A DNA stretch of 64,000 nucleotides from Candidatus Nitrosotalea sp. TS (GTDB lineage: Archaea > Thermoproteota > Nitrososphaeria > Nitrososphaerales > Nitrosopumilaceae), in the NCBI RefSeq assembly GCF_011319465.1, contig NZ_RCMB01000013.1, forward strand, positions 62,001 through 126,000, given 5' to 3'. The first letter of the stretch is position 1; the number at the start of each line of letters is the position of its first letter. Below, in pieces: positions 8,301 to 11,989 of this stretch. The notes beneath the pieces were generated by a model. The model was given only the letters and a program-made list of their open reading frames with translations, had not been told where the DNA came from and made no database searches. Made by a program: the position numbers and the translations under genes.

Positions 8301-9785
8301 TCATTTTATATGAACTGCAGTTTTTGAGACAGACCTGCTCAAGAATATGGCAAGCCCAATTGATGCAATTGAAACAATTGTGGCAATAAGAAATATCATA
8401 TTGTAAGAATCTGGAGTTGGAAATGTGCCAACTATACCTGGCAGTGAAGTCTTGTGAGTTTGCATGAACATTCCAGCCATTGCAGGTCCCACTGACGCAC
8501 CTATTATTCTAATCAGGGTACTCATCCCCAATGACACACCCACGTTTTGTTTTGGCGTTGCAACCATGATTACATTCATTGCACCTACGTTGGTAAGTGA
8601 CAAGCCTGTGGATAGGATTGCAAGACTTGCCGAAATCATAAACTCTGTAGAGTGATACATGAAAAGACTGGCAAATCCTATGGCACTAATTATGCTGCCA
8701 ACTATAATCGGCTTTGTAGAGCCCAATTTTGATATGATAAAGCCAGAAGTCGGGCCAAAGATTAGCAGAACAAGAGCAAACGGGAGTTGTACGTTTGTAG
8801 TAGCCACCGGATCTGCCCCAAATCCCAGTGGCACCGGACTTCGAATCAATACAGGTATTGTCTGAAATACCATGAACATTGACATGCCTACAATCATTAT
8901 CAGTATGTTTGACGGAAGGATTGTCTTGTTGAGAAGTATCTTGAGATCTACTAGTGGGTACTTTGATCTTTTTTCAATTATTGCAAAGAGAATCAGGTAA
9001 ACAATTCCAATCACGACAAGACCTATCATTGTAGAAGAACTTACCGAATCTCCTGTCTCAACAAAGGTCAGTGCCATCAAAAATGCAGTTACAGACACTG
9101 CCAGAGTGACTGCTCCCTGAATGTCAATGCCAGATTTTGGCTTGATGTCAGGTCCCGTCTGACCTTCAGATTTCCATTGAGGATGAACCTCATCTACATG
9201 TATGAACCTCTTGATTATTACAATTAGTGCAATTGCAATTGGAATTATTGAGAAGAAAGTGGATTGCCAACCATAGTTTTGAATCAAATGGCCTCCTGCA
9301 ACTAGTCCTATTACTGCGCCTCCTGCAAACATTGAAGTTATGATTCCCTGTCCTATTGCAAGTTTTTTTATCGGAAACTGCTCTCGTATCATTCCAAAAG
9401 CTATTGGGAACATGGACATTCCAATTCCCTGTATTACTCTGACTGCTAGCATCTCGTATATGTTTGTGACAAAACCTCCAAGGGAAACACCTACTGTGTA
9501 AATTACCACGATGACAAGAAGTATCTTTTTCTTTCCATAGATATCAGACATCTTTCCTGCGATTGGAGTCATTATTGCCCCAGCCAGAAGGTACGTTGTC
9601 AGGATCCACGATGATACACTATAAGAAATATGAAAATCTTTTATCAGGTCAGGAATTGCCGGCACAAGCATTGTTTCTGCATACATTGCCATCGTTGCAA
9701 GCAAGCTTAGAATTATGAGCGTCTTCCATGCTCGTGCTGGTATAGTATCAGGAGATTCTTCTTTAGGATTCTTTGACATTACCAT
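8301..9785 (-). CDS. MFS drug/proton antiporter (DHA2-like, 14 TM)
   Basis: A 494-residue major facilitator with about 14 hydrophobic segments. The N-terminal half has the typical motif SWILTTYLLAGAIMTPIAGKMSDIYGKKK (motif A loop GKMSDIYGKK) and motif C-like ITSMFAGGAVIGLVAGG, pointing to the EmrB/QacA-type export branch. It lies 6 nt downstream of a MarR-family gene on the same strand, and a strong palindrome precedes both, the classic layout of an exporter repressed by its MarR regulator. The exported compound is unknown. Confidence 0.9.
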   Translation of the reverse strand: MVMSKNPKEESPDTIPARAWKTLIILSLLATMAMYAETMLVPAIPDLIKDFHISYSVSSWILTTYLLAGAIMTPIAGKMSDIYGKKKILLVIVVIYTVGVSLGGFVTNIYEMLAVRVIQGIGMSMFPIAFGMIREQFPIKKLAIGQGIITSMFAGGAVIGLVAGGHLIQNYGWQSTFFSIIPIAIALIVIIKRFIHVDEVHPQWKSEGQTGPDIKPKSGIDIQGAVTLAVSVTAFLMALTFVETGDSVSSSTMIGLVVIGIVYLILFAIIEKRSKYPLVDLKILLNKTILPSNILIMIVGMSMFMVFQTIPVLIRSPVPLGFGADPVATTNVQLPFALVLLIFGPTSGFIISKLGSTKPIIVGSIISAIGFASLFMYHSTEFMISASLAILSTGLSLTNVGAMNVIMVATPKQNVGVSLGMSTLIRIIGASVGPAMAGMFMQTHKTSLPGIVGTFPTPDSYNMIFLIATIVSIASIGLAIFLSRSVSKTAVHIK

Positions 9786-9791
9786 TTTATC

Positions 9792-10276
9792 TTATCCTCT
9801 GTTTTTTCTTGAAACTTCGGCAGGTACGTTAACTTCAAAATATGTTGACAGATTTTTTGATATCTTGTGAAGTGTATCAAGCGTGGTTTCAAGTTTGTCT
9901 TCTGATATGTCTTTGGTGGAAACTTTTCGTATGTAAATGGCACACTCAGTCATGGAATTCCATAAAGAGTCCGCCTTTTGTGTCAGGTATATTCTGTTTA
10001 CTCGTCTGTCCTTTGAATCTGGCTTTCTTTTGAGCAGTCCTTCCTTTTCCATCTTGTCAATCAGTGGTACCAGTGTAGCACCTTCAACTCCCACCTTGTC
10101 TGCAATTTCCTTCTGAGTCAGGCCTGGGCTGTTGTACCAGGGATGCGACTACACGCCATTGGCTAAGTGTTCACTCCCACATTTTTTCTAAGTTCCAAAT
10201 CGAATGTTTTTTGAAATGCCTTTGCTGTATGGTTTACTACAAATCCCACACTTGATTCAAAATCATATTTTGTCAT
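9792..10276 (-). CDS. MarR family transcriptional regulator (two frameshifts)
   Basis: The intact C-terminal part (9792-10094) has the MarR wing EGLLKRKPDSKDRRVNRIYLT and dimerisation helices. Reading upstream in other frames recovers SQWRVVASLVQQP and GLTQKEIADKVGVEGATLV, the first helices of the DNA-binding domain, and an N-terminus MTKYDFESSVGFVVNHTAKAFQ from an ATG at 10276. Two single-base shifts, near 10160 and 10125, break the frame; the whole would be about 160 residues. It forms a two-gene operon with the MFS exporter and probably represses it in response to a ligand. Confidence 0.8.
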
Positions 10277-10289
10277 ATAGATAGACACC

Positions 10290-10313
10290 TAATGATTAGG
10301 TTCCTAATCATTA
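10290..10313. promoter_or_regulatory. MarR-type operator palindrome
   Basis: A perfect 11-bp inverted repeat (half-site TAATGATTAGG, 2-nt spacer TT) sits 14 nt before the MarR start. On the minus strand it directly follows and overlaps a TTTATAAT box (about 10318-10311), so a bound dimer would cover the initiation region. It probably autoregulates the marR-MFS operon and might also affect the divergent ferritin-like gene. Confidence 0.8.
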
Positions 10314-10370
10314 TAAACTTAGATCCCAAAGCGATTTCTTTATATCTTCCAGCAAGCCTGAACCGTATCT

Positions 10371-10972
10371 GTGACTAAAAAAAGATCTAAATGTTGTCGG
10401 CGTCAAAGTTCTAGAACAAAATGGCATCAACATAAAGGAGCTTGATCAACGCACTAGTTTACAACGCATCAGTTGAATTTACTGCTTACTACTATTTTAC
10501 AAATCTCAGAGCTCACTGTACAGGAATGGAAGGCGAGGGACTAAAAGGTGTAATCGAGGATGCAAGACTTGAAGATCTAAGTCACTTTGAATCATGCCTT
10601 TCAAGAATTTATGAATTGGGCGGAACTTTACCAAACAATGCTCAAGAATTTATCAAGATGTCAGGATGTGAGTTTTTGCAACTGCCAACAAACCCAACTG
10701 ACACAAAAGCAATACTTGAAAAATGTCTAAAGGCAGAACAGGGAGCAATCGTAAACTGGAACAGGGTGTGCAAGATGACACATGGAAAAGACCCTGCAAC
10801 ATATGACGTGGCAAAGGACATACTAAGAGAAGAGATAGAGCATGAAGCATGGTTTCTAGAATTATTGTATGGAAGACCTTCTGGGCATCATGAGAAGAAA
10901 ATATCCTGGAGAGCGACCACATACTCAGAAACACTCAAGAGCTTTGGGTTAAATCAAACATCTTACAGATAA
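10371..10972 (+). CDS. Dps-like/ferritin-like protein (two frameshifts near start)
   Basis: The intact frame from 10442 encodes a four-helix-bundle protein with ferritin-like metal ligands: helix 1 NASVEFTAYYYFTN, helix 2 ARLEDLSHFESCLSRIYELGG (E and H ligands), and ILREEIEHEAWFLELLYG (E..E..H). Upstream, a GTG at 10371 about 28 nt after TTTATAT starts VTKK; removing one A from an A7 run and one G at about 10443 gives DLNVVGVKVLEQNGINIKELINALVYN, joining the intact frame. The protein, about 199 residues, resembles Dps-like proteins that store iron and protect against peroxide; two Cys (SCLS, GCEF) resemble the thioferritin/DPSL pattern. Confidence 0.78.
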
Positions 10973-11025: not shown

Positions 11026-11517
11026 TCAGTTTAAACTTTCTAGTATTTCGTCAGTTTCAAGTCCAACCTCTTTTTTTAATGCAGAATATCTGTTTCGTAT
11101 AGTCACTGCAGTTATGCCTGATGCTTTTGCAATCTCAGATTGAGTTTTTTTCTCGCCGTTTAGAATGCATGCCAAGTAAAGGGTTGCAGCGGCAAGTGCC
11201 ATCGGATTCTTACCTGCAGAGGATCCTTTTTGTGTCAACTGCGCAATAATCTTCAGTGCATCTCTTCGTATCTTTTCGTTGATATTTACCTCATTTGCTA
11301 TTTTGGTAACAAATTCTGAGGCACTGCACGGATCCAAAGACATCTCAAAATTTTCAATTAGATTTCTACAAGCACGGCTGACCTCTTTTTTGCTCACATT
11401 TGCTGCCTGAGACACATCAGAAAGAGAGCGAGGAATTGCAGTCTGCCTGCAAGCAAGATAAAGAGAGGCACACATTAGGCCTTTTGCACTACGCCCTACC
11501 GTGATTTTCTTTTGCAT
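11026..11517 (-). CDS. tfb: transcription initiation factor TFB, C-terminal part (frameshifted)
   Basis: Contains the two cyclin-like repeats of TFB: first ending KKEVSRACRNLIENF, then LTQKGSSAGKNPMALAAATLYLACI, and the DNA-contacting helix-turn-helix QSEIAKASGITAVTIRNRY that reads the BRE. It joins the piece at 11558-11989 through a shift at about 11566, where one G too many in a GGG run hides GLPDSTAENAAYLYRKAMQKK. Together about 322 residues, normal for TFB. Confidence 0.9.
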   Translation of the reverse strand: MQKKITVGRSAKGLMCASLYLACRQTAIPRSLSDVSQAANVSKKEVSRACRNLIENFEMSLDPCSASEFVTKIANEVNINEKIRRDALKIIAQLTQKGSSAGKNPMALAAATLYLACILNGEKKTQSEIAKASGITAVTIRNRYSALKKEVGLETDEILESLN

Positions 11518-11557
11518 GGCTTTACGGTAAAGATATGCCGCATTTTCAGCAGTAGAG

Positions 11558-11989
11558 TCAGGAAGTCCCTAACTTTGTTTTAAGAGAATAAAGAAGCAGC
11601 AAGGCTGATCTCAGTGTCCTGTTAGATGATGCTGTTCTACTTCTGTTGTTAAGTATCTTCAATCTGCCAAAAGTATTTTTCATGTAACTAGACAGTGAAT
11701 TTCCCATTGCGTCTTTATTGGAAATAACTGTCATCATTCCCATATCATACATGGTAAGTGATTGCTCAGGTCCGGTCCTTGCCTTGGAAACAAACTCTGT
11801 TGCATCAGAAACGTGTTCCGGATTTGGATCTATTGATTTTTCAAGAAGAACACGTCCACAGGAACCACAGATTATCTCTCCAGACGAAGTATCTGTGATT
11901 ATTGGTTCTCCTATACATCCCGAGATAGGACATTTGGGTGATGTTACATCTAAAACTTCATCCATTCTTCCTAGATGTATTTTCATCAT
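11558..11989 (-). CDS. tfb: transcription initiation factor TFB, N-terminal part (frameshifted)
   Basis: The piece has the N-terminal zinc ribbon (C20, C25, C41, C44; CGSCGRVL) that recruits RNA polymerase, followed by the B-reader/linker region and the start of the first cyclin fold (RTLRSALLLLYSLKTKLG). TFB binds TBP-promoter complexes and BRE. Thaumarchaeota usually carry several TFB paralogues, so this may be one of a set. Confidence 0.9.
   Translation of the reverse strand: MMKIHLGRMDEVLDVTSPKCPISGCIGEPIITDTSSGEIICGSCGRVLLEKSIDPNPEHVSDATEFVSKARTGPEQSLTMYDMGMMTVISNKDAMGNSLSSYMKNTFGRLKILNNRSRTASSNRTLRSALLLLYSLKTKLGTS

Follow-up and report, generated by a model that had tools for sequence, protein, structure and literature searches.

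The question raised by this locus is whether a short inverted repeat upstream of a MarR-family regulator gene (marR) serves as the operator of a marR-exporter operon, and whether the same site also governs the divergent Dps-like gene. The window, meaning the whole 64-kb stretch of DNA that was analysed, comes from a Nitrosotalea-type ammonia-oxidising archaeon, with Nitrosotalea devanaterra and N. bavarica among the named records of the same group. The earlier note had described a perfect palindrome at 10290-10313, and this was confirmed: the site reads TAATGATTAGG TT CCTAATCATTA, with two perfect 11-nt arms and a 2-nt spacer (11+2+11). The distances given there are also correct, with the marR ATG at 10276, 6 nt between marR and the MFS gene, and the GTG of the Dps-like gene at 10371, 58 nt beyond the palindrome. 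With up to three mismatches allowed, the palindrome has a single match in the 64-kb window and likewise genome-wide (1.54-Mb genome, 71% complete). Symmetry alone is only mildly unusual and proves little, because first-order Markov sequences matched in composition would contain about 0.3 perfect repeats with 11-nt arms and a spacer of at most 8 nt per 64 kb. The evidence for the site is its conservation.

The perfect 11-nt arms are a peculiarity of the window genome, and relatives share a double box instead. Across 151 family genomes, the exact half-site plus start-codon pattern was too strict and matched only in the window's own genome, after which a double-box pattern was read off aligned relatives. 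One-mismatch matches elsewhere in G000 (C1:17771 and C17:8829) lack the double box and were set aside as chance. The alignment of 29 same-genus loci (L003-L031) with the window revealed an ungapped 27-bp double operator, TTAGGAACCTAATCATTAGGTGTCTAT, at 10281-10307 on the minus strand. On this strand, box 1, TTAG-GAAC-CTAA (TTAGGAACCTAA, 10296-10307), shares its centre with the palindrome, and box 2, TTAG-GTGT-CTAT (TTAGGTGTCTAT, 10281-10292), has its centre 15 bp from that of box 1 and carries one mismatch to TTAG-N4-CTAA. Before marR, the 29 loci and the window all keep the order of TATA box, TTAG-N4-CTAA-TNA-TTAG-N4-CTAA, 2-5 nt and ATG, without gaps and with 0-2 mismatches per locus. Column counts were taken over 29 rows, that is, 28 relatives and the window, omitting L027, whose box 2 is the most degenerate. 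The TTAG of box 1 is found in 29/29 rows at each base, as is the C of its CTAA; in box 2, TTAG is kept in 28-29 of 29 rows and CTA in all 29, and the N4 positions vary freely. Within two mismatches, the double-box motif occurs in 37/37 genus genomes, and a reversed control pattern is far rarer. Some two-mismatch double boxes, for example at G003:C37 and, inside an ORF, at G016:C67, look like chance, and the sites at five bacterial matches (L180-L183 and L185) were no better than shuffles.

Seen against this alignment, the palindrome is one half of a conserved tandem pair of putative SlyA-type boxes. The earlier note, which took the palindrome as the site, had thus found box 1 and missed the second box of the conserved unit. 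The palindrome (10290-10313, assigned to neither strand) is box 1 extended by its TNA flanks and by the edge of the marR TATA box, and it is the flank and the TATA end that extend the arm symmetry beyond box 1. Its placement between the TATA box and marR holds on the marR side, but the palindrome does not lie wholly outside the TATA box, since it overlaps the probable marR TATA box TTTATAAT (10310-10317, minus strand). An A/T-rich element occupies this position in all aligned relatives, consistent with a promoter role.

The gene behind this operator, marR (9792-10276, minus strand, with its ATG at 10276 and its stop ending at 9792), is frame-broken in the assembly and intact in relatives. Over its intact 100 aa, the window ORF scores 28.3 bits against PF01047 (cut-off 24.6), which identifies a winged-helix domain of the MarR family, and the intact same-genus orthologue from L003 shows 89% identity over 98 matched residues, with PA3341 and SlyA as its nearest PDB chains. 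For the intact G017 orthologue, the best NCBIfam match is SlyA (NF002926), at 55.5 bits versus an equivalog cut-off of 120, and we regard the window MarR as SlyA-like, not SlyA itself. The attached exporter gene (8301-9785, minus strand), whose ORF starts at 9785, encodes a DHA2/EmrB-like MFS protein (PF07690, E 1.8e-54, 185.5 bits); its orthologue is closest to TIGR00711 (EmrB/DHA2), with 141.8 bits versus a cut-off of 230.2, and its MFS membership is clear. As a side observation, marR, the Dps-like gene (10371-10952) and a TFB gene (11026-11989) are each split across frames in the window, although relatives have intact copies; this looks like an indel-prone assembly.

Compared with known systems, the operator is closest to that of SlyA. 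The SlyA consensus is TTAGCAAGCTAA, or TTAN6TAA, and E. coli slyA has such a box 22 bp upstream (PMC5797941). Box 1 fits both forms outside N4, and the protein match also points to SlyA of Salmonella and E. coli. Unlike SlyA, the window operator sits at an archaeal TATA promoter and consists of two boxes at a fixed distance of 15 bp, and the orthologue stays below the SlyA score cut-off. Among archaeal MarR-family regulators, ST1710 of Sulfolobus tokodaii was matched by sequence (3gfm and others), in a weak match (E about 5e-7) between the proteins. For Rv2887, a complex of two MarR-type dimers with a single 30-bp DNA has been described and likened to ST1710 (PMC5526998). MepR of Staphylococcus aureus represses itself, shares an operon with an efflux pump, binds pseudo-palindromes with GTTAG motifs, and has been proposed to occupy one site as two dimers (PMC3617543). 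The window resembles it in the joining of a MarR-family regulator gene to an exporter gene and in its TTAG-type half-sites, but MepR has a bacterial promoter, a MATE pump and separate sites for the regulator and pump genes. The inverted repeat of CouR, a MarR-family regulator of Rhodococcus jostii, is also placed between divergent genes (PMC4737184); that single box overlaps both promoters, whereas the window operator overlaps the marR promoter only.

We consider it highly probable that the 27-bp unit is a double operator for autorepression of the marR-MFS operon. The encoded MarR would bind it, probably with one dimer on each box, a stoichiometry that we infer solely from the box spacing; the conserved inverted repeats suggest dimer binding as such. 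Bound MarR would cover the stretch from the TATA box to the expected start site and block TBP/TFB or RNA polymerase, and both marR and the attached exporter gene would be repressed until a small molecule, perhaps akin to the exporter's cargo, releases the protein. We favor this operator reading because the motif is conserved without gaps and its half-sites agree with the SlyA consensus, as the SlyA-like character of the protein would lead one to expect, and the MarR operator proposed in the earlier note appears well supported by this comparison. Further support comes from the recurrence of the layout in another family (G057) and before two marR paralogues, with operator classes that cluster on the protein tree. 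Far from being missing upstream of marR in relatives, the double box precedes the regulator's own gene in all 29 aligned same-genus loci, as expected of an autorepressor operon, and it is also kept where the divergent gene differs. Against this, G024 has the operator with no marR found nearby, and in the window itself marR is frame-broken in the assembly. The 27-bp operator is an exact, testable target, and the predicted inducible exporter of Nitrosotalea would make its promoter a candidate inducible promoter. A literature search, with most subscription papers outside its reach, yielded no experimental work on a MarR operator of ammonia-oxidising archaea.

It is extremely improbable that the repeat is instead a transcript hairpin, a terminator or a chance repeat. 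The expectation of about 0.3 such repeats per 64 kb would by itself allow for chance, but chance is excluded by the conservation of the site. A hairpin or terminator is ruled out by position, since the palindrome overlaps the TATA box and would be at most partly transcribed, and by the N4 spacers, which are variable and mostly not self-complementary in relatives. The half-sites and their spacing are fixed, as for protein binding.

A separate matter is whether MarR at this operator acts on the divergent gene as well, as repressor or activator, and so couples export to iron or oxidative stress. The gene (10371-10952, plus strand; PF00210) is frame-broken with matches in three frames, and its intact G017 orthologue is an archaeal DPS, a Dps-like ferritin, scoring 265.6 bits against NF040955 (cut-off 250) and 283.6 bits against NF009990 (cut-off 158); the nearest solved chain to the orthologue is 2clb (E 2.5e-65). 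Its probable TATA box, TTTATATC (10339-10346, plus strand), is kept in relatives, even in the absence of the operator, and would act as its promoter; the position about 26 nt before the GTG suggests a leaderless transcript. Shared control is favored by the proximity of DPS, which lies at close range in 26 of 32 marR1 loci, about 210 bp further off in two and absent in four, and the CouR box common to divergent genes provides a precedent. In G024 (L075), moreover, the loss of marR-MFS has left the operator and DPS in place, next to a short remnant of the marR start. This exception to the association of operator and marR may reflect a recent deletion. The opposite loss is seen in G027 (L097), where the DPS gene and its TATA box are kept, an inner marR remnant lacks a start and the operator is gone; both relic genomes are incomplete (61% and 80%), so that marR could lie elsewhere in them. 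Four genomes (G010, G019, G020 and G030) keep the operator without a linked DPS gene, and each has only a DPS relative that is 51-53% identical to the linked DPS. In L132 and L138, the DPS promoter is more than 200 bp from the operator, and in the other loci the distance from the operator to the DPS TATA box ranges from 37 to 43 bp and is not fixed. The operator overlaps the marR TATA box and not that of DPS. Because of these patterns of loss, linkage and spacing across loci, the operator tracks marR rather than DPS. The suggestion that one site also controls the Dps-like gene therefore did not hold up, and we judge such shared control quite unlikely; DPS is probably outside the operon's control. 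This weakens a tempting link between export and Dps or iron stress.

The autorepression reading also has to be weighed against the possibility that the site is bound mainly by the paralogues MarR2 or MarR3, or by several regulators, and belongs to a shared network instead of a private autorepressor loop. Both paralogue genes carry the double-box layout before their own starts; those of marR2 are TTAG boxes with a CAAA end, those of marR3 TTKG/CMAA boxes. The marR2 operator is nearly identical to that of marR1, and where a genome has MarR2, this protein could bind here. In addition, G001, G002 and G014 have mixed double boxes ahead of other genes. On the other side, operator class requires only 10 changes on a maximum-likelihood tree of 74 MarR proteins versus a shuffled mean of 32.9, a contrast that is inflated by relatedness and drawn on a tree in which some long branches make joins unsure. 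Because box class follows protein clade, each regulator appears to prefer its own site. The sites found in the window's genome, which is incomplete, were that of marR1 and two near-identical copies of that of marR3, with none of the MarR2 class. We therefore consider binding mainly by paralogues or by several regulators unlikely, and continue to favor autorepression by the encoded MarR.

The layout also extends beyond the genus. In G057 (L101), from another family of the order, this arrangement stands ahead of a marR-MFS operon whose divergent neighbour is a gene other than DPS, and the marR-MFS operon of G043 (L102) is preceded by a looser 15-bp periodic array. We tentatively propose, as a possibility that we would not call probable, that the MarR paralogues of ammonia-oxidising archaea use one operator grammar, with two N4 boxes placed 15 bp apart via TNA beside a TATA box, that the half-sites drift between TTAG and TTKG from paralogue to paralogue, and that mixed sites ahead of other genes, some of them for secreted proteins, would mark a small cross-talking network linking efflux to the cell envelope. 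Paralogues with shifted operator half-sites can serve as a natural series.

Several further loci were observed. The mixed boxes of G014, G001 and G002 (L069, L070, L071, L072 and L073) combine TTAG and TTTG half-sites and precede other genes, several of them with signal-peptide-like starts; these genes are candidate members of a MarR regulon. The two marR3 regions of the window's genome (L078, G000:C2:2500-6500, and L079, G000:C1:129000-132500) are near-identical, and the downstream gene of one is split into several frames; the duplication possibly represents redundant contigs or a strain mixture. At L076 (G014) and L081 (G035), marR2 and a small gene encoding a winged-helix-like protein are divergently oriented, and the double box of marR2 adjoins its start codon or extends into it. 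In Nitrosopumilus and Nitrosarchaeum (L161, L164, L165, L170, L176 and L179), a distant marR is accompanied by one TTAG-N4-CTAA box only, which lies near the start of the divergent gene. This position suggests that the divergent gene, which encodes a repetitive, probably exported protein, may be under the control of the distant marR.
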